DNA from: a virus
DNA length: 57,301 bases
Virus record (IMG/VR): IMGVR_UViG_3300045738_002091
Coordinates: 1 to 57,301 of that record
Strand: one strand, 5' to 3'
Shown here: piece by piece, positions 20,530 through 38,907 of the stretch
Layout: every line of letters begins with the position of its first letter
Position numbering within the stretch: the stretch's first letter is position 1
The notes under the pieces: generated by a model
The model's input: the letters and a program-made list of their open reading frames with translations, nothing else
Told to the model about the DNA's origin: nothing
The model's database searches: none
Program-made: the position numbers and the translations under genes

Positions 20530-23500
20530 ATGGATATTGAACTCATACAATTAAATTATTCGACTGGCTACATAACCGGGCAAAATGTGTCTGTTTATGA
20601 TAGTACCATTGTCGAGATGAATATCACTGGAATCAGCCCAATCGTCTCGATTACTAGTGGTACAACTTATTTTTCCGATTCCACAGCCTACGTAACGGGA
20701 AATATAAATGTAGAAGACGGAGGAATTCTCACTGGTGAGATAATAGGAAACGTTACCATTTCTGGAGGTACGTCTTATCTGACTACAGACAGTAGTGTTT
20801 CAATTTCCGGCGGAACGAATACCATTACGGGATCTTCTGTTTTCGCTACGGGAGAAAATTTAAATATTTCCTATGGCGTAACCACAGCCACAGGAAATAA
20901 CATTAACATTACATCTGGCACTAATACAATAAGCCTTCTTTCTGAAAGCGATGTATATTTAACAGGCGGGACAAATATATTAAATGTATATTCGGGATCA
21001 GCTACAATAGGTGGAGACGTTGCGAATGTATACAATCAAATAGTCGATTCCACCAATACAACCGTAACCGGATATAATGTTAATATTACGGGCGGGACTA
21101 CGAACATAACGGGAAACAATTTTACTATATCCGATGGAACCAACAATATTAATAGCGGTAGTGGCATTGTCATAAATCATGGGCTTAACACTATTACAGA
21201 TTCTTTGGACGTTGATGTGCTTGGAACAGTAGAGGCTCTCTTTGATAACGAAGTTGCAGAACTTACTTTAATCGGAGGAGATCCATTAATTTATAAGCCG
21301 GATGCTGTCAATATTTATAGCGGTGAAGAAATTACAATACATGAGGCAATCACTGTCAATCTGAATGATGAGTCTTCTCTTAATCTACTGGGAGACGATA
21401 GCAAAATTATAAATGCTTCTACGCTTAACTTTACTGGCGATAATATTGATATAAGTAACTCGGGTTCTGGTATTGTCAATATCACCAGTATTGGAGATGC
21501 AACTGTAAAGGATAGCTCAAATATATATCTTTCAGGAACTGTAAATGTAACAGGAACCGTTATCAACTCTGGCTTGATTACGGTTACTGGTTCTGATTTT
21601 TCAATTTATAGCGGAGAGAATACCATTGGTAGCTCGACAGTAACTGTTAATTCTGACGATATAACGGTTCGTAATTTGAGTAACACTTATATAAATGGAG
21701 AGCTTCTATCGTTTCAAGACATTGAGATTCTTAACGCTGGTCAGCTTCAAATGACTGGGGATGCTACCATTTCAAATCTTGCTGGATCAATTAATATAAC
21801 TGGAGGAATCAATGAAATCACTGGCTTGGGTGATGGAATAATAGCTTTGTATGATTCATCAGGGGCAATTGTTAATACTTCTTCTTCTGTGTCCGTAACA
21901 GGAGGTCAAACAACCATTACATCTTCCGATACTGTTTCCTTAGTCGGGGAATCAGGATCTAGTTCTACTATCCACAATACTGGAAATGTTGGAATAACCG
22001 GGGGAACAATAGCAATAACCAACACAGGGGATGCTTCCGTAACGGGTTCTACCATAAGCTCGTTTAATTTGGTTTCTGGAACCGCACACTTTGTCTTGCA
22101 AACGGGTTTCATAACAGGAGGAGTTAATTATCTTACGGGACAGAATTTTAGCATCACATCCGGAACTAGCCATTTCACAGGAGATTCGATTTATGTTACC
22201 GATGGAACAAGTCACATTACGGGCAACAATGTATATATAACTGGACAAACAATAAGCGTAACCGGAGTGGGTGAATCAGTATTCGCGACAGGGCAGGACA
22301 TAACTATTAACGACGGAACAGTAAGCGCAACTGGTAAAATTTTTAACGTCAGTGGAAGCACGGTCAATATAACTGGACAACTTAACATCACTGGAACTAA
22401 CAACACAATAAATGCTGATACTGCATATTTAACAGGACAGTCTCTTAACATTTATTCCGGTACTAGCTTCATTACGGGAGGAGCGATTAGTGTATCTGGA
22501 GGCGTTGTAAATGTAACAGGGGTTACCTCTGGAACCTTCAACCTGAATGACGGTTCTGTATCGACGGTAAATCTTAGCGGAAGTGGAAATGTCCTTACGG
22601 TAAACGAAGGTGCTGTAATAAAGCTCGATATTGATGATGCAGAAAATTTGAATTTGCCTGATATAGACAGCGTGACTGTCATAAGTGGGAATACATATAT
22701 ATCTGGTCAAGAATTTTCAGGAATATTTATTACGGGCGGGACAACCAGCATAACTGGATTCATAGGTAGTGGAGTAACAGTAAATTCCGGTACGGTTAAC
22801 ATAAATTCCACTGGAGAGTTTACCCTTAATTCTCCAATCGAAGTCAACGTACACAACAAAGAAAGCGGAATAGTAAACTTTACTGGAACAGCAAATGTAT
22901 ATAGCGGGGCTAATTCAATTACGTCAGTTTCAGGAGCGATTATTTCCATAACTGGAGGAACCAATAGTTGGAGTGGAGGAGTCGTAACCATAACAGGTGG
23001 AACAAATTATATTACCGGAGATGTTTCAATAACCGGAGATCAAATAACCATTACGGGAAGTAGTGGAACAAATCAATATATAACCGGAAATTCAATAACA
23101 ATCCAAAGCAGCACAAATACAAACATATCAGGGATCAGTGGTTCTACTTTCGATATTGATGAAAGCATTAATATTTTTAGCGATATACAAGATTCTACAT
23201 TTACAATCGAAGACGTTAGTACTCTAAATTTAACGGGCGGAAGCCAAACAATTAACGGAACAATATCGCAACAGAACCAATATATGTTTGGGGGTAACAT
23301 AACAGGGACTGTGATAGTTTCGGGTGGAACACATACATTTAATACTTACGGTGATACTGATATAAACTTATACAGCGGGGAGCATAGTGTAACAGGAGAT
23401 TCTATAAATATAACAGGTGGATTTGTTAATATCTTTAATATAGAAAGTGGTGCAACAAATACGTTTTCTGATAGCGATGTTGATATAAGCATAAATACAA

Positions 23501-26500
23501 CCAGTGGTGATTCTACACTCGTAGTTTCTGGAGACGTTAATTCCATATCCACAAGTGAGTTATCTGTTGATACGTTAACCGGAAATCTTATCTCATTTAC
23601 GGGTTCAAACGTGACAATACAGACTGGTGATGTAAACGACATAAGCATAACCGGATATAATCAAGTGGTTAATTTGTCTTTTGGTTCACAATCTATATCA
23701 AAGGACTCGATAAACGTTGGAGATATTAACACTTTCATTTTACAGAATTCTGGAATTAATACGATTACTAATTTAACGGGACGTTTTGTTTCGATTATAG
23801 ATGGAGCGATAGATTTAAATAATGCATATGGTGATATTTATTCTTACTCTGGAGATATAAACGTTTCGAATACTGGAAATACATTCAATACTACAGGTGG
23901 AAATATCTACCATAACATCACTGGAAACGTAGACACCATTACCGGAGGCATAAATACTATTTATTCCACTTCTACCTTAAATCTACAAACAAATGAATTA
24001 ACCGTTAGTGGTGGAACCAACTACATAACAGGAGATACAGTTACTGTTACGGGAGGAATCAATTATCTTACTGGGACTGATCCCGGAACATTCTCGCTTA
24101 TAAGCGGAAGCAACTATATAACCCTAAATGACAATAATCTGGAATTAACAGGCGGCACAAATATAGTAACAGTCAATAGTGGAAATGTAAGCATTACTGG
24201 AATTACTACAATTTCGGGTGGAGCAATATCCGTTTTGGGAGACGTAAGTGAAGTAAGTGATTCTACGATAGTCCACAATGTTTCTGGAACTAATGTTGAC
24301 ATAGAAAGTATGACCGGAAGCATTACTGCCGTAAATGCATCTATAACTGGAATCATACTTTCAGTAACTGGAAATACAATAAACGCAACAGGGCAGGTTA
24401 ATGCCACGGGAGAAACTATTAATGTCACTGGCACGGCTTACATTAATGGATCGGGATCGAATATTTATGTTACTGGAATTGCCAATACAACAGGCTCAAA
24501 CACCAATATACTTGGGTCGGGAAATACGATTTCAATATCGGATTCAGATATTGTAATTTCTGGGGGAACTGTTTCTGACGTTAGTACAACTGGGCTTATA
24601 ATTAATCAGGGAACAACATATGTCACTCCGCTTACAGATAGGAAAATAATTCATACAGCATTTTATTCGTCTACTGGAGAAAGAAATTATGTAATTTCAG
24701 GTGGCGTTCCAACTGGTGAAGAAAATCTTATTGTCTCAATTGGTGGTATCATTATGAATCCATTTGATGATTATGCCATAAGTGGGACCAGCGTTCATTT
24801 AATCGCTTCTCCAAGTTCTGGAGAAGAAGTCGAAATAAGAAATTTCTCCTCAGACCAAGCTGATATACCAATTTCGATAATTGATGCGGCAAGCGTAAGA
24901 TTCACGGGCGGTAGTCAAACCGTTACGATAATTGATCCAAATGTGGCATACCTCTATCCAGAAAGTGGGAATGTAAGCGTAACAGGTGGCTTGGTTAATT
25001 TATACAATAGTTCCTCTACTCAAGTTGGCGTGACAGGTACTGGAATTACCATCACTCAAGGAATTATAACTATTTCTGGACAAACATCTCCCCCCATAAG
25101 CAATTCGACAGTCAATTTCTATGGCGATACCACAAATGTTATTACGGGCGATAATGTTTCTATTTCGGGTGGTGATAATTATATTAGTGGCGCTGTAGGC
25201 ATAGCTACGGCTCTTGGTTATTATTCAAATGCTGAAGCTTCGGGCCTAATGGATTCCGATATAAATATATATAGCGGAATTACATACATAACTGGTGGAT
25301 ACTCACTTGCAACTGCTGATTCGTCCTCCACAGCAACGGCTATATCGAATGTTAATGTAAATATGAGCGGGGGAATCAATACGATAAACACTCCGAACGT
25401 ATCTATTACTGGCTACCTTTTAGAAAATGTAAATCTTACGGCAACAAGTGGTGACATAAACGTAACCGGGCACTCTATTACCATTACGGGTGACAATATA
25501 ATAAACGCTAGTGGAAATTACCTAACAGTACAAAGCGGAACAGCTAACATTGAAATTACGGGCGATAATCCTATCAGTATCACAGGAGGATTAACTAATC
25601 TTACCATTAGTGGAACGACTAACATTATTGGTGGAGAAAACATTTTTAATATAAACAGTGGCGCTATCTCAGAGGTTTATACTAGCGGAACCAACACTAT
25701 TAATTCAGGGACAAGTTATGTAACTGGGCAATCTATTACTATAAATTCTGGAATAACTTATTTCACTGGGCAAAACACAGGATTAAATATAAATATTAAT
25801 TCTGGAATTACATATTTTACCGGAACAAATAATGACATAGATGTAATAAGTGGAGTATTTTACTTAACTGGTAATAATTCTGGGGCTTCCGTAAATACGA
25901 CTGGAGGCCAAAATTACTTTAGTAATCTTGAGAATCTTAATTTAAGTGGTGGTGACAATAATTTTGAAGATGCTCTAATAGAAAATATTAATCTTAACAC
26001 AGATACGATAAATATATATAGCGGCACTACATATGCAACTGGAGAGAACATAAACATAACGGGTGGTTTGAACTACGTAACTGGAGCTCGTGACATATGG
26101 ATTTACGGTGGAGAAAATATAGTTACCGGAGAAGAAGGAAAAACTTTTATAACTGGAGGAATCAATGAGATTTCGTTTGAAGGTTTTGGCTTTGCCTTTA
26201 TTAGATACGGAACCAATTATATAACAGGAGGCATTAATGAAATCGAAGCCCTTGGCCCCATTAGTATAACAAGCGGCACGAGTTATTTCACTGGGATTCA
26301 TACAGGACAAATCAATATAAACACTGGGATTAGTTATATCACTGTCACCGGAGATGTAATAGTCACTGGGGGGGTAACTCACATTACGAATACAGGATCA
26401 ATTTCCATCGATCCAGAAACTGCAAATATCTATAGCGGAACCAACTCAATTACGGGAACGCAAACAATCTATATAACTGATGGTATCAATATTTGGAGCG

Positions 26501-29500
26501 GGGGAACCAATACCATAACCAACGGCCAAAACTACATAACTGGGGACGTTTCCATAACTGGAGTAGATATAACGCTAAATGAAAGTACCATAGCCTATGC
26601 TACGGGGTCCTCCTTTACCCTTAATAACGGTGCAACTGCTAACGTAACTGGAAATCCCCCTGTCTATATTACGGGAGGAACTGCTGTAATTTACAACAGT
26701 GGGCAAACAGACGTAGCAAGCGGAACAAATGTCACAATCCACAACTATGCAGAGATGGATATGGTAGTCGAAGACGTGAACATAGTAGGCGGAACGAATA
26801 CTATATCCGGCGAAACACTTGGCGACATAAACATTAGCGATGGCACAAACTATATAACTGGAGATCCCTCTATAACGGGTTCTACGATAAACATTATAGC
26901 CGATTTGGTAACAGGGGTATCGGGACAAACAATAAATGTGAACAGCGGAGACGTTAACACAACTTTAATAGAAAATTCCACCATCATTTCCAATTTTGGA
27001 ACCATAAATACTTCTGCCGGAGTTTCGATAACGGGAAGTACAATAAACGTTGAAACTGGTTCTACAAATTATATCTCAGGACATACGGTAAATGTTTACA
27101 GTGGTATTAACATAATAGATTCTGAAGAGGGTGCTACTATTAGTGACTCGACTAATACATTTAATGCAACTGGCACTTTGAATTTTGATCTCATTGGAGC
27201 AACCGATAATACTTTCACATTTACTGGCGATAGCAACATAGTTAACATTACTGGAACAACTGTTTTTGGCGACATCACGATAAATAGTGGGCAAACTGCG
27301 ATTACCGGAGCAGAGATAGTCCTCTATGGGGGGGTTGCTACTATTCATTCTGGCGAAGATATTTTTCTAATTAATTCGATAAATACGATAAGTGGCGGAG
27401 AAAATGTTTATGTTCTTGGAGATAAAAACACATTATCTGGAATTACCATTGTCTCCTTTACTGGTAACGATAACTCTATATATGATTCTGTACTATATGC
27501 TGACGAGGTAAATATTGCCTCTGATACGATTAATACAATTCGAAGCGGCAACATCTCAATAGATGGCGGCTTGAATTCTTTGTATAATTCCACTGGAGCA
27601 AATATATACATAAGCGATACGGGCAACACCGTAAACATTACAAGCGGCACTAACATAAATATAGTAGGAACTGGGAATTTCCTATTTACTAGTGGTGATT
27701 TTACAACGGTAAATACAGAAGTATTTTCTGGGACTGATGCAACAATATCTGGACTTAATATCACTGGTGGAGGAGCCGCATATATAACAAACCAAGGCTC
27801 AGAAGTAATAAGCAACACAAATGTTCAATCCGGCGGGATTGCGTACCTAACTGGTAATTCCTTTACCGTTTCAGATATAGATGGAACTGCTTATATAACT
27901 GGAAGAGATATACAAATATCAGATAGCACGTTAATCAATAGTGGCGACCATGTAATAATAACAGGAACCTCTCTAGTCGTACAAGGTGGCGTAAATAGTG
28001 TTACTGGTAACTCTATCTCCATAACTGATAGTACAAATACCATATCTGGTCATCAGGATTTAATTACAATAACAGGAGGTACTTCGTACATAACTGGTGA
28101 CACAGATATATATTCAGGTACGAATTACGTTACAGGCACGACCATTAATATAACTGGTGGTGATATTATCGCAGAAGCAAATCTTGTCAATATCACTGGA
28201 GGGACAACGACTGTAAATGACAGTTCAGCCCATGTAACCGGAGAAAATATATCGATCTATGATTCTACGAATTATGTGACCGGGGGGGCAATCTATGTTA
28301 CTAGTGGAATCATAAATGCAACTGGAGATAACAGCACGATTATAGTAACGGGTAATGAATTAGTAAATCTCACAGATAATGATTTAGCCTATATAACCGG
28401 AGAAAGTATATCCATCCATGATTCTACGAATTATGTGACCGGAGGAATAATCAACATTACTGGCGGAATCGTAAACATAACTGGGGATAACAGCACAATT
28501 ACAATAACGGGTAATGAGTTAGTAAATGTCACGAATCATGCTATAGCTTCAGTGACTGGATCTGACATAGATATCGAAAATAACGATGGTGGAACAATCA
28601 GCATAACTGGGACAGTAGATACCATAAGTAATGGCACAAACTATATTTTAACTGGAGATTATTCTACCGGAATATTCAATATCACAGGTGGTACTTCTAA
28701 TATATATATTCAATCGTCAGGTAGCCATGCAAGCGTCACTGGCAATGCAAATATATACAGTGGAAATGTATTTGCCACTGGAAATGAGATTTCCATAAAT
28801 GGAGGTATCAATTCTCTCACTGGGGCTAATGTAAATATTACGGGTGGCACAAGTTATATAACTGGACATGAAGAAATAGTCATAAACAATGGAACCAACT
28901 ACATAACTGGAGCCGATATTGGTGTCACTGGGGGGACTAACGATATAACAAATCTAGGAGTGTTGGTTCTTGATACTCCCATTGGCTATATAGATGGTGG
29001 TACAAATCTAGTTACGGGAAACAACATTACCATTACTGGCGGTACAAATCATGTCACTGGACATGAAGATATATATATCACAAGCGGAACTTCGTTTGTC
29101 ACAGGAGGAGATGTATTTATTACCGGAGGTACGGTTTACTCGACAGGAAATAATATATTTGCAACTGGTCAAAATATCAACGTTTCTGGGGGAACAAGTT
29201 ACATCACTGGGATAACCGTTTCCTCAATTGGGAATAATAATCATATTTCTGGGAATACAGCCTATATAACGGGTGAAACATTGACTATAAATTCGCAAAC
29301 GAATTATATAACAGGAACAGACATATCGATCAACGATGGAACCAATACGATCACTGGAATCGTGACACTTATAGATGGGGGGGTAAACTACCATAGCGGA
29401 GTGACCCTTAATATTACTAACGGAACCACCTTCGCTACAGGAACCTATTTTAATATCACTGGTTCTACCAACTACATAACGGGTTCTGTCGTTAATATTA

Positions 29501-31500
29501 CAGGAAATGCAAATATAACAGGAGGGACTATTTTCATCACCGGAGAAGTTGGAAATATATATAGCAGTGTTAATACCATAAGCGGAGCTTCTTCGGTTTA
29601 CATAACATCTGGCACAAGTTACCTCACCGGAACAAACGTCTTTTTGACTGGTGGAACAAGCACAATAAATACAGAAAATGTCAATGTTACTGGATCGGCA
29701 ACCATAAACTCCCCCACAACTGCTTATGTTACGGGGAGCACAATCAGCATCACTGACGGTATTAGTTACGTAACTGGAGAAGCAATAAACATTACAGGTG
29801 GGACCACTTACTCTACGGGCAATCTATTTTATATTACGGGCGGTCCAAATACAATTACTGGTAGCGTAGTTAACATAACTGGTGATGGCAATTTCGTATA
29901 TGATTCTACCGTTACTATTTCAACCTCCGAAAATGTTTATATCACTGGGGGCACTAACCATATGACCGGAGTGTCTATCGAAATTAACAATGACGGAATC
30001 ACTTTCGCTACAGGAGTTAATGTCAGCATTACTGGAGGTAATAATAATGTGACAGGTCACCTTGTCAATATAACTGGTGGAACTAATACGATAGAGAACT
30101 CCACTGTTAACGTGACAGGGGATAAGATATACATTAATAACAGCACTAACTTTATAACAGGGGCAGAGCAAACAATAACGGGTGGCACAAATTACATCAC
30201 AGGAACTAATTCTTATATATCTAGCGGAACGAATTATGTTACGGGTAATACGGTATTTATTTCTGGAGAAACAGTAAACGTAACGGAAGTGGGTGAATCC
30301 GTTTATGCAACTGGCCTAACATTTAATATTAGCGATGGCACAAACTATATAACGGGACGATACATTGGCATTACGGGTGGAACCATTAACGATATTCAAG
30401 CCGAGGGTGATGTCAATATAACGGGAGTCCAAACCTTTAACTTTATGCCCACCGGAGCGGGTAACATCGCATATATTGAAACAGTTACAGCTAACATCTA
30501 TACAGGATTGGTTTATGCCACAGGGAATATAATTAATACAACAGATGGTTCAAATCACATAACTGGAGGTGATTACATGACCGTTAATGTAACTGGCGAG
30601 ACTACCTACATAACTGGAAGAGACTCCATGACTTCCTATATAACTGGAGATGTTACAATTTATGATGGGACCAATCACATAACCGGAAGTAATGTTGGTA
30701 TTACTGGAGGTGTTAATTATATTACAGGTAATGCATATATAACTGGTGAAGGAGAGTTTTTTGCCACTGGAGAAAATATATACATATATCCAACCCTATC
30801 CTTTGAGGGTGAAAATTATGCCCATTTGGAGCTTACCAATGACATAGATGTAACAGGACAAAACATATATATAACTGGGGATGGACATAGCGTAACCGGA
30901 AAAACAATTTATATAACTGGAAACGACAACACTGTTAGAGATAGTACCGTATATGTTACGGGTTCGCAAATATATGTTACGAACGGAACAAATTCATTTA
31001 CTGGAAGTGATACGGTTAATATTACTGGCGGTACTAACGTAGTAAATGCTCATAATGGCTCGACTACGAATATCACAGGGACATCAATAGGGCCGATAAC
31101 TTCATCTGGCACAAGCTATGTAAATGCCACAAGCGCTTATTTCACTGATGGTATTAATTTCAATATTACCGGAATCTCAAATTATTTTACGGGCGGCAGT
31201 CATTATATAACTGGAAACAACATATTCATGACTGGTGGCACAATTGAAAATGCAGGGGGAACTCTTAGTCTCACTGGTTCTGGAATAACTATAAATAGCG
31301 GTACAAACTATGTTGATAATTCCAATCTAACAACATTCAATTCTATTATCAACTTTACTGGAGAAACAATTAGAGACAACATAATCAATGTCTATACAGG
31401 AAATGTAGATATCGAATTGGCATCTGGAACTGATATACATACTACTGGTGGTAGTATTTATATATCGGGAACAGACATAACAATAAGCGGAGAGGTTAAT
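19480..31500 (+). repeat. Giant in-frame protein repeat region (ITGGTNYITG-type beta-solenoid)
   Basis: About 12 kb encodes near-continuous coils built from units such as INITGGTNYITGNN, roughly 14 residues made of two 7-residue strands (x-[IV]-x-[IV]-[TS]-G-G and T-N-x-[IV]-T-G-x), with occasional single 7-residue units and short insertions. It covers the end of the 2186-codon ORF and most of the 3774-codon ORF. The amino-acid consensus is strong, but third codon positions vary freely (Gly as gga, ggt, ggc or ggg; Thr as aca, act, acg or acc), so the DNA itself is not a simple repeat. Solenoid folding is inferred from the alternating hydrophobic pattern with Gly/Asn turns. Confidence 0.85.
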
Positions 31501-31854
31501 GTAGCAAGCGGAACGTTTGAAGTAATAGGTGCAATATATGGAAATTTGAATTTACAAGCCGGGTCAGAAGCTACTCTAATAACTCCAGATATTTTCGGTG
31601 ATTTAAGGAGCTATGGAATTCTCCAAATCAATGGAGATGTGACCTTTGCTCAAACGAGTGGTGATACATTAATCTCTGGGATTTTACAACATCTCTACAC
31701 TGGAGAGGTTCCGACAGGAACCGTGGACGAATATGGAATAGACGGACAAATTGCCTATGATACGGGATGGTGGTATGTCAAGGTTCCTGATTCTGGTTGG
31801 TTAAGAAATCGCCTTTGCCCGTGGGGAGAAAGCTATCACACAGATTGTCCCTAA
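20530..31854 (+). CDS. Giant beta-solenoid adhesin, 3774 residues
   Basis: Almost the whole protein is ITGGTNYITG-type coils with Asn/Ser/Thr/Gly turns, expected to form an extended right- or left-handed beta-solenoid more than a hundred coils long. One island breaks the repeat: residues about 1360-1440 hold a fibre module (LIVSIGGIIMNPFDDYAISG, SPSSGEEVEIRN) also present in the preceding ORF. The last 115 residues leave the repeat and finish with GQIAYDTGWWYVKVPDSGW, an ending like those of other phage fibre proteins. The ATG abuts the TAA of the preceding ORF in the same frame, and no good ribosome site is visible (only GGTGGCGA), so expression by reinitiation or by stop readthrough are both possible. 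There is no signal peptide and no membrane segment, which fits a virion protein. Its stop overlaps the stop of the convergent gene by 4 bp. Confidence 0.85.
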   Translation: MDIELIQLNYSTGYITGQNVSVYDSTIVEMNITGISPIVSITSGTTYFSDSTAYVTGNINVEDGGILTGEIIGNVTISGGTSYLTTDSSVSISGGTNTITGSSVFATGENLNISYGVTTATGNNINITSGTNTISLLSESDVYLTGGTNILNVYSGSATIGGDVANVYNQIVDSTNTTVTGYNVNITGGTTNITGNNFTISDGTNNINSGSGIVINHGLNTITDSLDVDVLGTVEALFDNEVAELTLIGGDPLIYKPDAVNIYSGEEITIHEAITVNLNDESSLNLLGDDSKIINASTLNFTGDNIDISNSGSGIVNITSIGDATVKDSSNIYLSGTVNVTGTVINSGLITVTGSDFSIYSGENTIGSSTVTVNSDDITVRNLSNTYINGELLSFQDIEILNAGQLQMTGDATISNLAGSINITGGINEITGLGDGIIALYDSSGAIVNTSSSVSVTGGQTTITSSDTVSLVGESGSSSTIHNTGNVGITGGTIAITNTGDASVTGSTISSFNLVSGTAHFVLQTGFITGGVNYLTGQNFSITSGTSHFTGDSIYVTDGTSHITGNNVYITGQTISVTGVGESVFATGQDITINDGTVSATGKIFNVSGSTVNITGQLNITGTNNTINADTAYLTGQSLNIYSGTSFITGGAISVSGGVVNVTGVTSGTFNLNDGSVSTVNLSGSGNVLTVNEGAVIKLDIDDAENLNLPDIDSVTVISGNTYISGQEFSGIFITGGTTSITGFIGSGVTVNSGTVNINSTGEFTLNSPIEVNVHNKESGIVNFTGTANVYSGANSITSVSGAIISITGGTNSWSGGVVTITGGTNYITGDVSITGDQITITGSSGTNQYITGNSITIQSSTNTNISGISGSTFDIDESINIFSDIQDSTFTIEDVSTLNLTGGSQTINGTISQQNQYMFGGNITGTVIVSGGTHTFNTYGDTDINLYSGEHSVTGDSINITGGFVNIFNIESGATNTFSDSDVDISINTTSGDSTLVVSGDVNSISTSELSVDTLTGNLISFTGSNVTIQTGDVNDISITGYNQVVNLSFGSQSISKDSINVGDINTFILQNSGINTITNLTGRFVSIIDGAIDLNNAYGDIYSYSGDINVSNTGNTFNTTGGNIYHNITGNVDTITGGINTIYSTSTLNLQTNELTVSGGTNYITGDTVTVTGGINYLTGTDPGTFSLISGSNYITLNDNNLELTGGTNIVTVNSGNVSITGITTISGGAISVLGDVSEVSDSTIVHNVSGTNVDIESMTGSITAVNASITGIILSVTGNTINATGQVNATGETINVTGTAYINGSGSNIYVTGIANTTGSNTNILGSGNTISISDSDIVISGGTVSDVSTTGLIINQGTTYVTPLTDRKIIHTAFYSSTGERNYVISGGVPTGEENLIVSIGGIIMNPFDDYAISGTSVHLIASPSSGEEVEIRNFSSDQADIPISIIDAASVRFTGGSQTVTIIDPNVAYLYPESGNVSVTGGLVNLYNSSSTQVGVTGTGITITQGIITISGQTSPPISNSTVNFYGDTTNVITGDNVSISGGDNYISGAVGIATALGYYSNAEASGLMDSDINIYSGITYITGGYSLATADSSSTATAISNVNVNMSGGINTINTPNVSITGYLLENVNLTATSGDINVTGHSITITGDNIINASGNYLTVQSGTANIEITGDNPISITGGLTNLTISGTTNIIGGENIFNINSGAISEVYTSGTNTINSGTSYVTGQSITINSGITYFTGQNTGLNININSGITYFTGTNNDIDVISGVFYLTGNNSGASVNTTGGQNYFSNLENLNLSGGDNNFEDALIENINLNTDTINIYSGTTYATGENINITGGLNYVTGARDIWIYGGENIVTGEEGKTFITGGINEISFEGFGFAFIRYGTNYITGGINEIEALGPISITSGTSYFTGIHTGQININTGISYITVTGDVIVTGGVTHITNTGSISIDPETANIYSGTNSITGTQTIYITDGINIWSGGTNTITNGQNYITGDVSITGVDITLNESTIAYATGSSFTLNNGATANVTGNPPVYITGGTAVIYNSGQTDVASGTNVTIHNYAEMDMVVEDVNIVGGTNTISGETLGDINISDGTNYITGDPSITGSTINIIADLVTGVSGQTINVNSGDVNTTLIENSTIISNFGTINTSAGVSITGSTINVETGSTNYISGHTVNVYSGINIIDSEEGATISDSTNTFNATGTLNFDLIGATDNTFTFTGDSNIVNITGTTVFGDITINSGQTAITGAEIVLYGGVATIHSGEDIFLINSINTISGGENVYVLGDKNTLSGITIVSFTGNDNSIYDSVLYADEVNIASDTINTIRSGNISIDGGLNSLYNSTGANIYISDTGNTVNITSGTNINIVGTGNFLFTSGDFTTVNTEVFSGTDATISGLNITGGGAAYITNQGSEVISNTNVQSGGIAYLTGNSFTVSDIDGTAYITGRDIQISDSTLINSGDHVIITGTSLVVQGGVNSVTGNSISITDSTNTISGHQDLITITGGTSYITGDTDIYSGTNYVTGTTINITGGDIIAEANLVNITGGTTTVNDSSAHVTGENISIYDSTNYVTGGAIYVTSGIINATGDNSTIIVTGNELVNLTDNDLAYITGESISIHDSTNYVTGGIINITGGIVNITGDNSTITITGNELVNVTNHAIASVTGSDIDIENNDGGTISITGTVDTISNGTNYILTGDYSTGIFNITGGTSNIYIQSSGSHASVTGNANIYSGNVFATGNEISINGGINSLTGANVNITGGTSYITGHEEIVINNGTNYITGADIGVTGGTNDITNLGVLVLDTPIGYIDGGTNLVTGNNITITGGTNHVTGHEDIYITSGTSFVTGGDVFITGGTVYSTGNNIFATGQNINVSGGTSYITGITVSSIGNNNHISGNTAYITGETLTINSQTNYITGTDISINDGTNTITGIVTLIDGGVNYHSGVTLNITNGTTFATGTYFNITGSTNYITGSVVNITGNANITGGTIFITGEVGNIYSSVNTISGASSVYITSGTSYLTGTNVFLTGGTSTINTENVNVTGSATINSPTTAYVTGSTISITDGISYVTGEAINITGGTTYSTGNLFYITGGPNTITGSVVNITGDGNFVYDSTVTISTSENVYITGGTNHMTGVSIEINNDGITFATGVNVSITGGNNNVTGHLVNITGGTNTIENSTVNVTGDKIYINNSTNFITGAEQTITGGTNYITGTNSYISSGTNYVTGNTVFISGETVNVTEVGESVYATGLTFNISDGTNYITGRYIGITGGTINDIQAEGDVNITGVQTFNFMPTGAGNIAYIETVTANIYTGLVYATGNIINTTDGSNHITGGDYMTVNVTGETTYITGRDSMTSYITGDVTIYDGTNHITGSNVGITGGVNYITGNAYITGEGEFFATGENIYIYPTLSFEGENYAHLELTNDIDVTGQNIYITGDGHSVTGKTIYITGNDNTVRDSTVYVTGSQIYVTNGTNSFTGSDTVNITGGTNVVNAHNGSTTNITGTSIGPITSSGTSYVNATSAYFTDGINFNITGISNYFTGGSHYITGNNIFMTGGTIENAGGTLSLTGSGITINSGTNYVDNSNLTTFNSIINFTGETIRDNIINVYTGNVDIELASGTDIHTTGGSIYISGTDITISGEVNVASGTFEVIGAIYGNLNLQAGSEATLITPDIFGDLRSYGILQINGDVTFAQTSGDTLISGILQHLYTGEVPTGTVDEYGIDGQIAYDTGWWYVKVPDSGWLRNRLCPWGESYHTDCP
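28228..28545 (+). repeat. 159-bp tandem duplication within the solenoid gene
   Basis: Copy one (28228-28386) and copy two (28387-28545) are 53 codons each and align end to end. Both contain TGATTCTACGAATTATGTGA as part of a longer identical run, and GATAACAGCAC plus GGTAATGA.TTAGTAAAT further on. Most other coils in this gene have diverged completely at synonymous sites, so this pair looks like a younger duplication that added an exact multiple of coils in frame. Confidence 0.7.
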
Positions 31855-32582
31855 GCCTTAGTCATTTTTTCCTTAAGGGCCTTGATCTTCGGGATATATT
31901 CAAAAATCTTTATATTTGAAACGTCATCTAATGAACTAAATTCATCTGCTCCTTTGACCCCATCAGAAACAAGCCTTTTTTTTACGTCATCAAAACCAAC
32001 GTTTGTAATGTCCATTAGTTTCTGAAGGATTACCCTTGGATTTGTGAGGTTTCCGCTTTCCCCATCTTGTTGGGGAGGGACTATTTTGGAATTTCCTATT
32101 TCGTCTTTGCCCAAAATATTAACCTTTAGGAAGTTTCTGACGCAGCGCACAAATGCTCTATTTTCAGCCGTTGCTCCAAGATAATACCGCGTAAGAGAAT
32201 TGGTGTTCTCTATGGAAGCGTCTCCTATAGCAGAGAAGGTTACTTCTTTTCCTTCTGTCTCAAGATTCGGAATCCATTTTATTTTGCAAACAGAAACTAC
32301 ATAACCCTGAGAGGGGCAAGAGACCTCGTGTGTAAGCTCAGTATAACCTCGAACTTGAGCAAGTTCTTTATACCCATGAAGAAGAACGAGTAAATCTCTA
32401 TCTTCTAAATCATCAATACTTTTGCTTGCGTTGCCCCTGTCTTTTGGGACTAAAAAATCAGGGTTGATCATTTTTCTCCAATCAATAAACCCTTCATCGG
32501 TAAGTTTGTAGTCTAACCCTTTAATTAAACCGTCATTATTGCGTTCGATCTTTTTGATTTTAGGCGTGGCTTTTCTTGGCAT
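31851..32582 (-). CDS. Hypothetical phage protein, possible single-strand annealing (Rad52-like) protein
   Basis: This 243-residue cytosolic protein has a basic N-terminus. The middle part has a beta-rich segment (TELTHEVSCPSQGYVVSVCKIKWIP) followed by GDASIEN and a helix AENRAFVRCVRNFLKVNI. A glycine-aspartate turn followed by an A-E-x-R-A-x-x-R-x-x-R helix resembles the core of Rad52/Sak-type annealing proteins, but the match is by eye and weak. The C-terminal 60 residues are helical and charged. It is the last gene of the minus-strand block that holds the polymerase core, which fits a replication or recombination role. Alternative: an unrelated conserved phage protein. Confidence 0.7.
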   Translation of the reverse strand: MPRKATPKIKKIERNNDGLIKGLDYKLTDEGFIDWRKMINPDFLVPKDRGNASKSIDDLEDRDLLVLLHGYKELAQVRGYTELTHEVSCPSQGYVVSVCKIKWIPNLETEGKEVTFSAIGDASIENTNSLTRYYLGATAENRAFVRCVRNFLKVNILGKDEIGNSKIVPPQQDGESGNLTNPRVILQKLMDITNVGFDDVKKRLVSDGVKGADEFSSLDDVSNIKIFEYIPKIKALKEKMTKA

Positions 32583-32583
32583 T

Positions 32584-33762
32584 TTATTTTCGGTTTGTTT
32601 TTGTTTTTGTTTTTTCTAAGAGCATGTAATAATCAGATTCCTCCCAAAACTCTTCATCATCGACAACTTTTTGGATATCGTCTTGATTCGAGCAAGGGAT
32701 ATCGTTTTTATGATGATATTTACTTAAATACATTTTAGAATTGCTAAGAGTAAGCTTGGATGATTTGAAATACAAGTTTTTTTTGTCTTTGTGTTCTGAA
32801 AAGTCAGGGATCTTTTTGGGGTGGATAATTCCGTAATCCATATAATCAAGCTTAATAGACTCAAGTTCTTTCCCTTCAATGCTGCTCAAAAGTAAAAATT
32901 TTATACCATGATATTCAAGAAATTCTATAAATTTTGGATCATTTTCTTTTTCTATAAAATAAATTATTTCTTTAATTTTGTGTTTGTACTTAAGAAGTAT
33001 ATTCGAGTCGATTGACTTGTTAGTCACAATAGAGCAAACGCAATCTTCTAGCTGCCTACAAAGATTGTTTTCTTCAAAGAAAAAATCCATTCTTACGATA
33101 ATCGCAGATATATTAAGGGACGCAGAACCTATGACTTGATTAGGTACTGTTTCTATTATTTTATTAAGATAATTATTACCCGACCCAAGCGTCTTGTATC
33201 CAAATTTAAAATCAAATCCAAGAAGATCAAAAATTGCTTTTGCAATTTTCTCTGGCTTAATCATATTAATTGTTTTTGGAAATTCCTGTGCCGCAAAAGA
33301 GGGCTTATTTCCTTCTCTGTCGCTTTCTATAAGAATTTGATTTTTGTTATCGCCCCAGTAAGGTTTAACGTCTTCTTTATGGTTATTTGCATAAGCGCAA
33401 ACTATTTTTTTATTGTAGTGTCCGGCCAATTGACTAATGTGATTGTCTATTCCAAAGTGAAGCATTGAATTTTTGATCAAATATGCTTCTTGATTTTTGG
33501 TTGCCATACCACATACAGAAAAAACATTAGGAGGAGCTTTGCATCCTTTTTCTCCAAGTTGAAGAATTTGTATCTCTTCTTCTCTAAATTTGTCTTTTAT
33601 TATAGTAATAACATCTGCCCAAAAATCGTAATCTTGAGACGGAATAAGAGAAGTCGAAAACGTAATATATTTTTCAAAATCCAACGGGAAAAATTTCTCG
33701 TAGATATACGGCTTGTCTATTCTAACGCCGCAATTGGTCGCATAAGATTCTACTAGGTGCAT
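32584..33762 (-). CDS. Glycosyltransferase family 9-like, C-terminal half plus extra domain
   Basis: About 392 residues from the ATG at 33762, four bases after the TGA of the upstream glycosyltransferase ORF; the open frame actually extends to 33867. The first 200 residues match the C-terminal half of heptosyltransferase-type GT9 enzymes: a KYITFSTSLIPSQDYDFW start, IQILQLGEKG, and FGIDNHISQLAGHYNKKIVCAYAN in the nucleotide-sugar binding region, then KPYWG. The matching N-terminal Rossmann half is at the end of the upstream ORF, so the fold is split between two genes in different frames. The last 190 residues are a separate unassigned domain. Target sugar and acceptor are unknown. Confidence 0.72.
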   Translation of the reverse strand: MHLVESYATNCGVRIDKPYIYEKFFPLDFEKYITFSTSLIPSQDYDFWADVITIIKDKFREEEIQILQLGEKGCKAPPNVFSVCGMATKNQEAYLIKNSMLHFGIDNHISQLAGHYNKKIVCAYANNHKEDVKPYWGDNKNQILIESDREGNKPSFAAQEFPKTINMIKPEKIAKAIFDLLGFDFKFGYKTLGSGNNYLNKIIETVPNQVIGSASLNISAIIVRMDFFFEENNLCRQLEDCVCSIVTNKSIDSNILLKYKHKIKEIIYFIEKENDPKFIEFLEYHGIKFLLLSSIEGKELESIKLDYMDYGIIHPKKIPDFSEHKDKKNLYFKSSKLTLSNSKMYLSKYHHKNDIPCSNQDDIQKVVDDEEFWEESDYYMLLEKTKTKTNRK

Positions 33763-33766
33763 ATTT

Positions 33767-35689
33767 TCACTTATAGTTAAGGTCTTTGTAAACAACTTTA
33801 TCTTTTCCGTTTCTTGAATATGTTGGGTGTTTCTGTGTCGTAAAATAAGGCTGAAACACAATGTCAAAATAACCTTTGTGTTTTCCTGTCCCTTGTAATC
33901 CTCTAAGATTATCCATTTGGTCGCTATAAGGAATCACGCCATGAACATATGGGTTTCCATCTAGAATATCAAAATATTCCGGTTTTGTACAAAAATAAAT
34001 TTTATAATTTTTATACTCTTCAGATATCGACCTAAGTAAGCTAGTAGACATAAAAACATCTTGAGCACTTTCAGGCATTATATACAAAATTCTTTTCTTG
34101 TCTTCTTTATCAAGAAGCGACTCAAGTGACTTATGTTTATTTTCAATTTCGGTATTTTCTTTTGTCGCCACCTGTCTGAAATAAGACTCTACGCTTTCTC
34201 TTGTGGCCCCTTTGACCATTTCTTGCATCCAATACCTATGCCCATCATCCTCTGAAGTAACATAGTGCATCTTAAGTATGTTGTGATACATACATAGTAA
34301 CCATTCATCATCGTTTTTAGTTTCTGGAATCTCAAAATTTGGATCTCTTTCCTCTTCTTTTAGGTCAAATTTATAAGTCGTAGGTTTGCATGTGTCTAAA
34401 AACCTTTCTAATTTTTTTCCAACAGCATCTATCGAAAATAAAGAAAGGGTCCACTCTCTTGCTTTCTTGCCAATTTTTTCTTTTTTGTGTTTGGGCATTC
34501 TCCAAACTTTCTCTATTTCTTTCGCAATTGATTCCGGTTTTGTTGAGGCTTTTCTGAATTCAGTTCCATGTTCTCGATATTCGCTCCAGTCTAACGCTAT
34601 GGAACCAGAGTCTGGAGTACAAAGGTCTTCTCCACAAGAATAGTTTGTAACAAGCGTTATTAATTCTACAAGTTTAGCTTCTTGAACTGGAATCTCTTGG
34701 CCACCAGAGGTAAATGGGTGGCAATATACATCCATTAAGTTGTATACTTCATTTAGTTGTTCCTCAGAAACTCCTAGTCCTACTCCCGTTGTGACCATAC
34801 CTTTTTGATCCCCACATATTGAACACGGTTGATCTTGTCCATTAAAGGGTTTTACATTGTAATTTTTACAGGATTTACAGACATAAGTAGTTATAATTTT
34901 ATTTTTATCTATTTTATATTCTCCAGCAAGTCTATGGATATTCCACCCTTCTGCCCAACTTGTATGAAGCAAAAGATAAGCATTGGAATTTTTATTTTTA
35001 GATAAGAATTTTTTGAATCCTTCTAACAAATTAGGTACAGATTTCCTAAGCTGGTTTCTGAAAACGTAACCTATGATATAAGCGTCAGGAGAAATTCCAG
35101 ATTTTTTTCTTAATTCTAACTTTTTTTCATCATCAAGTTTGTAAAAATATTTATCATCAATTGCCCCATGAACCGTTTTAACTTGCTCATAACCTTCTTG
35201 ATTTATCGCTTTGGTTGCAAAATTTGACCATATCCAATAATTTTTAACTCTTTTTGCTGCTTCGATAGCAGTTGGAAGAATCGGCAAGGAATCAAGAGTC
35301 GTCCATAGAACAGAGGTGATTTTATCAAACCATATTTTATTTATCGCAAATTCAATTCCCCATATGTCTTGCACAGCAATATAAACATCAGGTTTTTCGT
35401 CTTTCATTACCCTGTCGATATAGTGTGCTCCATAACCAGCTAATCTGGCTACGTTTGGGTCTCTGTTTAATTGATTTACTTCCTCTTGGCTATCGGGAAG
35501 ACACCCCATTGATTTCCAAGGGGTTCTTTTTAGGTCAGGGTTGGAATAACTCGTTCCAGCACAATAGTGTACCAAATCATACTTATCAGTTTTATATAAA
35601 TAAGTCAAAATGGCTTTGGCGTTTCTACCAAAACCAGTTTTGGCCAAAGCTGAATCAGTTTGGATAAGTACTTTAAGTTTTTTTGACAT
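33767..35689 (-). CDS. GT-B glycosyltransferase (family 4-like) with zinc-ribbon insert and C-terminal GT9 N-half
   Basis: The 640 residues start at the ATG at 35689, which forms a TAATG junction with the upstream stop. Residues about 1-450 are a GT-B transferase: KVLIQTDSALAKTGFGRNAK at the N-terminus, a GYVFRNQLRKSVPNLLEGF segment and a donor-site region with VYCHPFTSGGQEIPVQEAK. A four-cysteine zinc-ribbon (CKSC ... CSIC, about 271-294) is inserted before the donor site. Residues about 528-640 begin a second domain, RILYIMPESAQDVFMSTSLL then GNPYVHGVIPYS, the N-terminal Rossmann half of a GT9 heptosyltransferase, and the ORF ends inside it. The next ORF holds the other half. Phage glycosyltransferases usually decorate DNA, virion proteins or host surface glycans; which applies here is not visible. 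Confidence 0.82.
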   Translation of the reverse strand: MSKKLKVLIQTDSALAKTGFGRNAKAILTYLYKTDKYDLVHYCAGTSYSNPDLKRTPWKSMGCLPDSQEEVNQLNRDPNVARLAGYGAHYIDRVMKDEKPDVYIAVQDIWGIEFAINKIWFDKITSVLWTTLDSLPILPTAIEAAKRVKNYWIWSNFATKAINQEGYEQVKTVHGAIDDKYFYKLDDEKKLELRKKSGISPDAYIIGYVFRNQLRKSVPNLLEGFKKFLSKNKNSNAYLLLHTSWAEGWNIHRLAGEYKIDKNKIITTYVCKSCKNYNVKPFNGQDQPCSICGDQKGMVTTGVGLGVSEEQLNEVYNLMDVYCHPFTSGGQEIPVQEAKLVELITLVTNYSCGEDLCTPDSGSIALDWSEYREHGTEFRKASTKPESIAKEIEKVWRMPKHKKEKIGKKAREWTLSLFSIDAVGKKLERFLDTCKPTTYKFDLKEEERDPNFEIPETKNDDEWLLCMYHNILKMHYVTSEDDGHRYWMQEMVKGATRESVESYFRQVATKENTEIENKHKSLESLLDKEDKKRILYIMPESAQDVFMSTSLLRSISEEYKNYKIYFCTKPEYFDILDGNPYVHGVIPYSDQMDNLRGLQGTGKHKGYFDIVFQPYFTTQKHPTYSRNGKDKVVYKDLNYK

Positions 35690-36246
35690 TACCAAATATC
35701 GGAATCATCATCCTTGACATCGGGCTTTGGTTCTGGTTCTGGAGCCTTCTCCTCGGCCTCTTTTACTCTTTGTTTCGCATCTTTAATTCTTTTTTTTCTT
35801 GTTATCTCGAAACTCCGAAGCAAGATGTATTCGAAGAAAAGAACAAGCTGGACAGATTCAGGGAAATCAAAACCAATAGCAAAAAATTCTCCGCTAGTTG
35901 AATCATCAGGTTTTTCTTTCGTAACTCCTAAAGAAAATCCAAGCTGATTGCCCTCTTTATTCACATAAGGGCCGAATTTAAATTTGACGATTTGGTTACT
36001 ACCATGATAACCCTTGAAGTCTGTGTTCCTTTTTATTGCATCTATAAAGCTGCAAATTTCCTTTTGGCTGAACTTGAGAATAACCTTGTTTTCGGGATCA
36101 TTAGCATGAAATGAAGCTTTTCGAGCTTTTGCATCCCAAGACTTTTGTCTAATTATCGAGGCGAAAAAAGAATTTTCTACCTCATTTAGGTAAAATCGAC
36201 AGGCCGAGCCTTTTACTGTTGGTTTTGGTTTGTAGAATTCAATCAT
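35689..36246 (-). CDS. Candidate single-stranded DNA-binding protein
   Basis: About 185 residues from the ATG at 36246; an in-frame ATG at 36258 is also possible, and neither has a clear ribosome site. The body has a KPKPTVKGSACRFYLNE start, a basic/aromatic strand region (YHGSNQIVKFKFGPYV, GFSLGVTKE) and a helix (VLFFEYILLRSFEI). The C-terminus is a Pro/Glu/Lys linker ending in DDDSDIW, an acidic tip with a final aromatic residue, as in SSB and T7 gp2.5-type proteins. The body resembles PC4/whirly-like phage ssDNA-binding proteins, judged by pattern only. It lies directly downstream of the polymerase core, which supports the idea. Confidence 0.65.
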   Translation of the reverse strand: MIEFYKPKPTVKGSACRFYLNEVENSFFASIIRQKSWDAKARKASFHANDPENKVILKFSQKEICSFIDAIKRNTDFKGYHGSNQIVKFKFGPYVNKEGNQLGFSLGVTKEKPDDSTSGEFFAIGFDFPESVQLVLFFEYILLRSFEITRKKRIKDAKQRVKEAEEKAPEPEPKPDVKDDDSDIW

Positions 36247-36279
36247 ATGGAGAACCATACAGGGAAATCCCCGAAGGTG

Positions 36280-38907
36280 TCAAGCGTTATTTTCTTTCTT
36301 ATCGGATTTTAATTGTGATAACTTAGTATAGATTTTTTGATCTTGAACTGAAATATTATAGGCGAAAATCGCATCTTCTTTTTTGGTTCCCCTGAGGATA
36401 ACGAGACTGCCTTTTTGGGGGTATCTTCCTCCGTTTTGGGATTTCATGTCGTCTACGCTATCGTTAAAAATGAGTACCGTGATTAATCCGGTTTCATCTT
36501 GGACTTCTGCTTTATAATAGCGCGTTCCTTTTCTTGATTTTCCAGTTCGATAGTCTATTACGGTTCCGGCAAGGGTAATTTTTTCATTTAGACCCGCCTC
36601 TTGCGCTTCGAAAACAGACATCAAATCGCTTCTCTTGTCAGCGTAGATTTCTCTTAACGTCTTATTGTAGGTGAATCCGAGAAGAGTCCTTTCATAATAC
36701 CAATTTGCCAGATCTTCTGATTTTTGATTTATGTCGTAAATTTCTTTGTATGGTTTGTATCGTTTCCTAATGGTTTCTTTTCTGGAATCTTTAATTAGGG
36801 GGCGACCCTTTTCATCGTTTAGTTTGCTTATGTGCCTTAATATTTCTAATAGGTTTTCTTTAAATTTTTCTTTATATTTTACTACAATTTTCTTTTCCCT
36901 AAAGGTCAAAATATTCCAAAGTTGTGCCTCAAGCACAGTCCGGCTTCTGGTCTGTTTCTCAGTTTCGAGTGCTCCTGCTTGAAGTAGGGCGGATAATATG
37001 CCGATTCCAATTTTAGCCTCTTCCGCTCCTTGAAACACTCCGAATTTGTTTGAGTATTTTTTTCTAAAACTCTGGAGCTTTTCAATTGATTTGTCAGAGA
37101 TCCCCTTTATAGACAAGAGGCCAAAACGAATGTTTTTATTTTCAATTGTAAAATCTAAATCAGATTTTAAAATATGAGGAGGTAAAAGCTTCATGTCAAA
37201 TTGATGAAGTTCTTTGTGGATTTTAGAAATTTCGTCAATCGGATCTCCCTCGTTTCGAGTCATCCTTAAAAGAGACAAGTAAAATTCTTTTGGATGTTTG
37301 AACTTAAGATAAATCGTAATTGCAGCAAGTGCAGCATAGGAAATGGAATGAGACTTGTTGAATGAGTAATTAGCAGAGTCTTCTAGAACTTTCCATAGTA
37401 CATTACTAATTTTTTTGTCCAGATTATTTTCTTTGACTTTGTTTTTAATTTTCTTTTTCCATTCACGAACTTCAGACACTTTCTTTTTGCCGACAATGCG
37501 GCGAAGGATTTCAGCTTCATCAAGAGTAAAGCCAACTTTATGAGCCATCTTCATTAGCTGTTCTTGATATAGGGCTACCCCTCCTGTCGATGCTAAAATG
37601 TCCTCAAAAAACGGATGAATTACGTCATAGGTTTCATTGTTTACATAGTTTGCGTATTGATTTACATACGCTAATGCTCCGGGTCTAGCTAAGGCTAAGA
37701 CCGCACTTAGTTGTTCTAAATTTTTAGGCTTAACTTTTCGGCAGACTCTAAAGTTCGTATCGGCTTCGATCTGAAATAATCCATGAGGCGCTTTAAGATC
37801 TTGGAGATTTTGATAGATGGCAGGATCGTTAAGGTCAATGTCTTCAGCATTTATTCCAATTTTCTTACATGCGTCATCAACAACGGAAGCACTACGTAAC
37901 CCAAGTATGTCCAATTTCACATTTGAAATGGATACGTAATTCATATCGTAACTGGTTATAGAGCTTTTATCAGAAGAAAGCTCCGTGGGGCAACAATCTT
38001 CGAGCTTATCATACGACAATGAAATTGCAGAAGCATGTACGCTTTTATTTTTTATGAGACCTCGAAGCTTAAGCGCAATTTTATAAGATTCTTCATTTTC
38101 ATCACACCAGTCTTTAAATTTGGGCTCTTCTTCATACGCCTCTTCAAGATCTTTAACAATCCCAAAGACTCTCGGGATCAGAGAAGTAACTTCATTCATC
38201 TCTTGTTCTGTTTTTTCTCCGACAATCTTACCGCATTCCTTCATTACGAGTTTCCCGCTAAGAGTGTTAAAGGTTACGATTTTTGACGTTCTTTCTGAAA
38301 AAAGCCCTTCAAGATATTTGATTACCGTCTGCCTATTATAATAACAAACGTCAACATCAATATCACACATCAATGATCCATCTAAGTATGTTACTCCATC
38401 TATTACTTGCTTCTTGGTGCGAGCTTTTGATATGAACCTTTCGAAAAAAAGATCATATTTAATCGGGTCTATTTTTGTTACCCCTATAAAAAACAAAATC
38501 AAGCTCCCAGCCGCAGAGCCTCGGCCCAATCCAATTGCTATTTTGTTTTCTTTGCAAAAATTAATTACCATCCATACTAAAAGGATGTAATCGGTAAACT
38601 CCAGTTCCTTAAGAACTTTTAATTCGTATTTTGCTCTCTTTATGTATTTTTTATACAGGTCAGAGTTCTTTTTTAAGCCTAAGCTTTCGAACCCTTCTAA
38701 GGAGAGAGCTCTGAGGAAATCATGATTTGAACAGTCCTCACTAAGCTTGTGCTTCCGTTTTAAATTTAAATCAATTTGAAAATTTGGAAGCCTTACTCCA
38801 TATAGGGGAAGGTTTATTTTTTTAAACTGCTTTAAAAATAATTTTTCGTTATTAGAATTCGAAACTGCCATCTTCTTGGACATCTGGTCCGGATGTATCG
38901 TCGTCAT
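36280..38907 (-). CDS. dnaE: DNA polymerase III alpha-type polymerase core (DnaE lacking PHP domain)
   Basis: This 875-residue replicative polymerase of family C starts exactly where the PHP domain of DnaE normally ends. Motifs in order: GRGSAAGS at about 128, MCDIDVDV at about 180 (two catalytic aspartates), HASAISL at about 290, VKLDILGL at about 330 (third aspartate region), GLFQIEAD and LARPG at about 375-400, YQEQLMKMAH, FNKSHSISYAA at about 515, a helix-hairpin-helix (LLSIKGIS) at about 595, and an OB-fold with AGTVIDYRTGKSRKG near 778. The missing N-terminal domain is encoded about 9.4 kb upstream at 48303-49064. Alternative starts at 38883 and 38871 exist; the ATG at 38907 overlaps the upstream gene by 56 bp. 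There is no intein signature. Confidence 0.93.
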   Translation of the reverse strand: MTTIHPDQMSKKMAVSNSNNEKLFLKQFKKINLPLYGVRLPNFQIDLNLKRKHKLSEDCSNHDFLRALSLEGFESLGLKKNSDLYKKYIKRAKYELKVLKELEFTDYILLVWMVINFCKENKIAIGLGRGSAAGSLILFFIGVTKIDPIKYDLFFERFISKARTKKQVIDGVTYLDGSLMCDIDVDVCYYNRQTVIKYLEGLFSERTSKIVTFNTLSGKLVMKECGKIVGEKTEQEMNEVTSLIPRVFGIVKDLEEAYEEEPKFKDWCDENEESYKIALKLRGLIKNKSVHASAISLSYDKLEDCCPTELSSDKSSITSYDMNYVSISNVKLDILGLRSASVVDDACKKIGINAEDIDLNDPAIYQNLQDLKAPHGLFQIEADTNFRVCRKVKPKNLEQLSAVLALARPGALAYVNQYANYVNNETYDVIHPFFEDILASTGGVALYQEQLMKMAHKVGFTLDEAEILRRIVGKKKVSEVREWKKKIKNKVKENNLDKKISNVLWKVLEDSANYSFNKSHSISYAALAAITIYLKFKHPKEFYLSLLRMTRNEGDPIDEISKIHKELHQFDMKLLPPHILKSDLDFTIENKNIRFGLLSIKGISDKSIEKLQSFRKKYSNKFGVFQGAEEAKIGIGILSALLQAGALETEKQTRSRTVLEAQLWNILTFREKKIVVKYKEKFKENLLEILRHISKLNDEKGRPLIKDSRKETIRKRYKPYKEIYDINQKSEDLANWYYERTLLGFTYNKTLREIYADKRSDLMSVFEAQEAGLNEKITLAGTVIDYRTGKSRKGTRYYKAEVQDETGLITVLIFNDSVDDMKSQNGGRYPQKGSLVILRGTKKEDAIFAYNISVQDQKIYTKLSQLKSDKKENNA

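Follow-up and report, generated by a model that had tools for sequence, protein, structure and literature searches.

The viral DNA record IMGVR_UViG_3300045738_002091 of the IMG/VR database, 57,301 bases long and called here the window, carries two adjacent genes, A and B, whose products correspond to one glycosyltransferase of the GT9 (heptosyltransferase-like) type cut between its two lobes. Profiles, structural comparison and individual residues all support this assignment. The N-lobe is the tail of gene A, which also encodes a GT4 transferase and a DUF4214 region, and the C-lobe opens gene B. The division seems to be an old, conserved gene layout and not a mutation, and it is likely that the two products constitute a two-chain GT9 with an active site formed between the chains. 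The parts of the gene pair are as follows.

33767..35689, minus strand: gene A, 640 amino acids (aa), comprising GT4 transferase, DUF4214 and GT9 N-lobe
34376..35689, minus strand: GT4 part of gene A, residues 1–438; PF00534, fold match to BshA
34814..34879, minus strand: four-cysteine insert within the GT4 part (C271, C274, C289 and C292), all invariant in 43 members
34103..34366, minus strand: DUF4214 region of gene A, about residues 442–529; PF13946
33770..34102, minus strand: GT9 N-lobe of gene A, residues 530–640 (111-residue tail); TIGR02195, hhalign
34058-34060, minus strand: catalytic-base Asp544 of gene A, aligned in 43/43
33760..33769, minus strand: junction TGA-AAAT-ATG, with the gene A stop (33769..33767), 4 nucleotides (nt) and the gene B start (33762)
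32584..33762, minus strand: gene B, 392 aa, comprising GT9 C-lobe and an alpha/beta domain; AlphaFold2 (AF2) model with a predicted local distance difference test score (pLDDT) of 92.8
33211..33762, minus strand: GT9 C-lobe of gene B, residues 1–184; PF01075, WaaC fold match
33445-33447, minus strand: donor-side Asp106 of gene B, kept in 39/44
32587..33210, minus strand: C-terminal alpha/beta domain of gene B, residues 185–392, family not assigned

Collection of Related Loci

Relatives were gathered by profile scans of viral contigs anchored on gene A, on gene B and on the gene A tail, which covered the best 80 of 254, the best 80 of 112 and the best 80 of 362 relatives, respectively; one scan of bacterial and archaeal contigs added 12 contigs of metagenome-assembled genomes. 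The resulting 257 loci overstate the number of genomes, because several loci share one contig; safer figures are the 138 distinct junctions and, among the 229 loci in which every part is present, the 124 that are non-redundant. Family counts of residues and domains refer to 43 gene A members and 44 gene B members. Both genes are missing as a pair in L006, L167 and L248, where the contig ends in or just after gene A, in L177, with a partial gene A, and in L108–L110, which have no gene A. A profile was needed for this collection: when viral contigs were scanned with gene B as a single sequence, two pattern matches and no relative came up. A tblastn search with A and B of the window against 50,697 deposited phage records found no relative, and the same search with two of the relatives gave no more than weak matches, at the GT4 level to the Synechococcus phages S-EIVl and S-CBS4 and also to Salmonella heptosyltransferase III.

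GT9 Assignment of the Two Halves

The original prediction placed the two halves of a heptosyltransferase-like fold on two open reading frames (ORFs) in different frames, with the N-terminal half at the end of the transferase gene and the C-terminal half in the next ORF. Family profiles and the predicted fold bear this out. Judged by sequence profiles, the GT9 signal is barely visible in the window proteins alone and becomes clear once family members are added. Against the NCBIfam heptosyltransferase models, the window protein P0002 had two matches (E 0.004 and 0.0065) and P0001 none. In the family, heptosyltransferase II (TIGR02195) was matched by 37 of 43 gene A tails (best E-value 4e-7), and PF01075 by 34 of 44 gene B members (best 3.9e-14), the window's own protein not being among these matches. 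At locus L063 both chains fall on the same 339-position heptosyltransferase II model, gene A covering positions 1–48 and gene B positions 234–338.

The C-lobe is also recognised by its structure. The gene B profile, searched against the PDB, matched WaaF (E 3.8e-5), and residues 1–183 of the AF2 model overlay WaaC 139–322 with the GT-B fold of the C-lobe (Z 16.6, root-mean-square deviation 2.9, 151 aligned). When aligned with hhalign to a single-chain GT9 alignment, the A tail occupies columns 4–78 (probability 94.7) and gene B columns 168–343 (probability 96.2); the cut therefore falls between the GT9 lobes, at the helix with which the C-lobe begins. The C-terminal domain of gene B, used as a negative control, aligned with a probability of 0.1. 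The reference alignment consisted of three cellular sequences, seven loci having been tried and four having yielded none. Since no Pfam GT9 model matched the gene A tails in a Pfam scan, the evidence for the N-lobe comes from NCBIfam, from hhalign and from a PDB profile match that is weak; this region contains the GD motif and the catalytic-base Asp that mark a GT9 N-lobe.

The A–B Junction

The sequence separating the two halves is as originally quoted: the TGA of gene A is followed by AAAT and then by the ATG of gene B. The second frame had also been described as staying open for 100 bp inside gene A. It is indeed open, for 162 nt upstream of the gene A stop, but this stretch is not part of gene B; the ORF start listed at 33867 is an upstream TTG, and the alignment of the relatives begins with the ATG at 33762. 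When the codons of gene A are shuffled, an open frame of 162 nt is reached in 2.7% of 5000 trials. Across the 138 distinct junctions the gene B frame upstream of the gene A stop is closed in 45 and open for merely 1–30 nt in 79, and the overlap of frames is therefore not a family trait.

Three explanations of this arrangement had been offered, namely a broken fusion, separate chains and frameshifting, and the relatives discriminate between them. In six of the first seven close relatives gene B follows gene A, the gaps being 4, 7, 4, 11, 207 and 14 nt and the frames differing; the contig of the seventh stops inside gene A. Among the 257 loci, the window included, gene A is present in 253, gene B in 253 and both in 250, and none has a fused ORF; in no locus do the A and B lobes share one chain, the arrangement that is usual for GT9 although not strictly defining. 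The fairest test of fusion is the scan with the A tail only, because the sequence following the tail plays no part in it; it returned 0 fused among 80 loci (the best 80 of 362). The 138 distinct junctions comprise 55 overlaps of 1–17 nt, 64 gaps of 1–15 nt and 17 gaps of 192–1019 nt. Nineteen gaps over 100 nt were counted and 17 are valid; the other two are start-finding artefacts, caused by pairing with a second, unrelated GT9 in L019 and by a misplaced start in L056. The two genes stand in relative frames 0, 1 and 2 at 11, 54 and 73 junctions, and all three stop codons occur.

In this genome, a fused GT4–GT9 gene of some 1030 codons could have been broken by a recent indel of one base or by misassembly, and the long open frame of gene B in the window speaks for such an event (shuffle P 0.027). 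The relatives have already refuted it: separate genes with divergent spacing, the outcome named in advance as decisive, remove the broken fusion, as do the lack of a fused relative and the intact genes that lie inside some junctions. Its probability is now vanishingly small. Ribosomal frameshifting that makes one protein of A and B, for which the neighbouring and differing frames of the window would be suitable, is extremely improbable. It fails because frame, spacing and overlap are not conserved, because slippery heptamers are few (an X3Y3Z heptamer lies in the overlap at 4 of 52 junctions of one shifted frame and 7 of 41 of the other) and because some junctions, within the long gaps, hold a complete gene. 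A conserved frame relation, overlap and slip site, the marks of programmed frameshifting, were not found across the 138 junctions. The remaining explanation, that the halves are separate chains, is supported by the varying spacing and frame and by the genes between them.

The larger gaps between A and B hold intact genes for an Anp1-type transferase, a DUF6165 protein, a protein of about 70 aa and a nucleotide-sugar epimerase. The Anp1-type transferase (PF03452, about 213 aa) stands between A and B in L015, L016, L017, L018, L020–L023, L043 and L081. A DUF6165-like protein of 125–135 aa occupies this place in L037, according to a family scan, and in L068, L087 and L168, according to similarity noticed on reading. 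The epimerase is encoded at L194:4323-5351 (phrog_540, E 1.9e-78). At L019:12883-14580, downstream of the pair, there are a single-chain GT9-like protein of 318 aa and another transferase-like protein.

Evidence on the Proposed Two-Chain Enzyme

Substitution of the two catalytic Asp residues of WaaC is reported to lower activity 4688-fold (D13A) and 2027-fold (D261A) (PMC5713226). Asp544 of gene A, aligned with D13, is invariant in 43 of 43 members, and Asp106 of gene B, aligned with D261, is kept in 39 of 44. Two further invariant residues, Q619 and N627, lie within the last 28 residues of gene A. The model of A by itself leaves these residues unfolded (mean pLDDT 56, 44 and 40 for the last three blocks); a conserved end that is predicted to be disordered would be as expected if the partner chain were needed. 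The ratio of nonsynonymous to synonymous substitution rates (dN/dS) is 0.03–0.11 for the A tail and 0.11–0.30 for B in the pairs with usable dS, dS being saturated, with no ratio, in 4 of 11 pairs for the A tail and in 3 of 11 for B. These ratios indicate that both halves are under purifying selection.

The two halves diverge together across the gene border. Across the 124 non-redundant loci, the A tail and the B lobe correlate in their pairwise distances with r 0.84, as against 0.66 for the A tail and the GT4 part on its own chain and 0.76 for the B lobe and its own C-terminal domain. When the phage background, represented by two conserved neighbour proteins, is removed, the partial correlations are 0.76, 0.36 and 0.63, respectively. 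Both differences in correlation were above zero in 500 of 500 bootstraps. In 15 loci with an inserted gene the corresponding values are 0.88 (A tail and B lobe), 0.80 (GT4) and 0.65 (C-terminal domain). The GT4 distances follow the two neighbour proteins (0.90).

In the proposed mechanism, the phage has A and B as ordinary adjacent genes, and their products would together form one GT9-type GT-B enzyme. Chain A would supply the acceptor lobe with the catalytic Asp544, and the lobe for the donor nucleotide, with Asp106, would come from chain B; the active site would arise at the interface of the chains. Since chain A also bears a complete GT4, the complex would hold two transfer sites and might attach two sugars, one after the other, to a single acceptor. 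The assembly of lobes from separate chains has a precedent in GT-B lobes engineered as separate chains, which are reported to assemble and work (PMC10937113).

Several observations weigh against this two-chain enzyme. Against solved GT9 structures the A tail gives a weak match (3tov, E 0.059), it is shorter than a complete GT9 N-lobe, and Asp106 is lost in 5 of 44 gene B members. Rank correlations have the same order but are smaller than those given above, 0.63 for the A tail and B lobe against 0.55 and 0.44 for the same-chain pairs, and block exchange of neighbouring DNA or a shared rate could give part of the linked divergence. Finally, L108–L110 (142, 31 and 25 kb) have gene B beside its usual downstream gene, with neither gene A nor an A tail in the record. 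The other large records contain both an A-tail match and a PF01075 match in 20 of 20 cases; the A-tail profile finding its target in all of them, the search itself works. The three records are perhaps fragments, and a lone C-lobe is possible.

The short N-lobe, the lost Asp106 and the lone gene B could also be accommodated by two chains that form no GT9 site, the A tail being a docking or acceptor-binding domain and B acting elsewhere or only binding nucleotide. We consider this unlikely in view of the invariance of Asp544 and the linked divergence of the two halves, both of which favour the two-chain GT9.

Other Domains of Genes A and B

The first part of gene A is a GT4 transferase. PF00534 (Glycos_transf_1) was matched in 43 of 43 gene A members, the window protein alone scoring 26.2 bits, just under the cut-off of 26.4, and residues 3–438 of the model have the full GT4 fold, a GT-B fold (BshA 3mbo, Z 31.6). 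Structure searches with Foldseek and a second aligner used the full-length gene A model, and GT4 filled the match lists; only GT4-like chains were returned, aligned over residues 3–438 in the second aligner. The four-cysteine insert is zinc-ribbon-like, with a weak HypA match in 21 of 43 members. The position that we take to be the first Glu of the EX7E motif appears as Gly329 in gene A, and this glycine is invariant.

PF13946 (DUF4214) was matched in 41 of 43 gene A members. Gene A of L175 and L176 lacks DUF4214; there the GT4 part directly joins the GT9 N-lobe, and gene B is still separate. In one record, L212:756-2725, the GT4 part of gene A is spread over two overlapping ORFs, perhaps through an indel or assembly error.

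For the C-terminal domain of gene B, the best PDB profile match had an E-value of only 0.06, and no Pfam family is common to many of the 44 members. A PDDEXK match of the window gene B (E 0.0024, below the cut-off, in 1 of 44 members) was taken as chance.

Genome Neighbourhood and Possible Function

The gene pair has a fixed place among replication genes. Across the 44 compared loci, which are the window and 43 relatives, the genes usually follow one another as helicase, thymidylate synthase, primase, exonuclease, polymerase parts, polymerase III alpha, a 189-aa protein, A, B and a 243-aa protein. The corresponding neighbours in the window are the following.

35692..36258, minus strand: conserved neighbour upstream of gene A, 189 aa; adjoins A in 43/43 compared loci having A
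31851..32582, minus strand: conserved neighbour downstream of gene B, 243 aa; adjoins B in 43/44 compared loci
36280..38907, minus strand: DNA polymerase III alpha, PF07733 (E 6.9e-59); in 38/44 compared loci

Nothing follows gene B in the 44th locus. Family searches gave no family for the upstream neighbour and no convincing match for the downstream one; a single-strand-binding or Rad52-like role of these proteins is our own reading only.

The fixed place in the replication gene cluster suggests a link between the A–B pair and replication. One function compatible with the two-chain GT9 is glycosylation of phage DNA at modified bases, for which the position among helicase, thymidylate synthase, primase, exonuclease and polymerase III genes speaks. 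It is nevertheless quite doubtful: the thymidylate synthase family PF00303 is over the cut-off in just 1 of 20 records, Tet/JBP (PF12851) was found in 0 of 20 in a search without a positive control, and the inserted genes hint at glycan synthesis more broadly. The acceptor may also be another one, such as the cell surface or phage proteins. In a more tentative and speculative scheme, the pair would be a heterodimer with two sites, acting on an acceptor that arises at the replication fork, namely modified phage DNA. GT4 might add the first sugar and the divided GT9, active only with both chains together, the second; the split point would then be a slot for further sugar genes that vary the glycan.

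On the plus strand, positions 20530-31854 encode a repeat ORF of 3774 residues with 175 [IVLF]TG motifs, identity peaks at lags of 7, 14, 21, 28 and 35, and a composition of 16% Thr and 14% Gly. According to its sequence, this is probably a repeat-built surface or fibre protein. Being Thr/Ser-rich and near the transferase pair, it could be a candidate acceptor. Just before it, at 13969-20529 on the same strand, lies a second very long ORF of 2186 aa with weaker periodicity.

Comparison with Known Systems

The pair resembles the GT9 heptosyltransferases WaaC, WaaF and RfaQ in the profiles of both lobes, in the fold of B and in the two catalytic Asp positions. Unlike these enzymes, it consists of two chains, has a shortened N-lobe, and has each half fused to other domains. 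The autotransporter heptosyltransferases TibC/AAH, with a GT9-like fold, are among the structures matched by gene B. TibC is described as having a four-cysteine metal finger (PMC4358343); in gene A the four cysteines belong to the GT4 part and not to the GT9 part. TibC/AAH are, moreover, single chains, and nothing points to a dodecamer in the phage pair.

The GT4 part of gene A, with its full GT4 fold, resembles GT4 transferases such as BshA, to which gene A adds the four-cysteine insert, DUF4214 and the GT9 N-lobe.

Literature searches turned up neither a divided GT9 nor this phage gene pair. The nearest parallels are Alg13/Alg14 and EpsE/EpsF, reported as MurG-like GT-B enzymes with acceptor and donor lobes on two chains (PMC4973528). 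As in A and B, each chain carries one lobe; the family is a different one, and the acceptor lobe of the phage enzyme is joined to a complete GT4 and not to a membrane anchor. No MurG-type family is among the 24 families listed for the 44 gene B members, where GT9 models match instead, and MurG (7d1i) is a weak fold match to the gene B model.

The natural two-chain division of a GT-B enzyme, known from the MurG-like family, is seen here for GT9 lobes, as a conserved feature of a broad set of uncultured phages. The two halves have different partners on their chains and diverge in step with one another on either side of the gene border. The A–B pair is a natural test of building a cleft active site from two chains, and it points to a glycosylation step tied by gene order to phage DNA replication.

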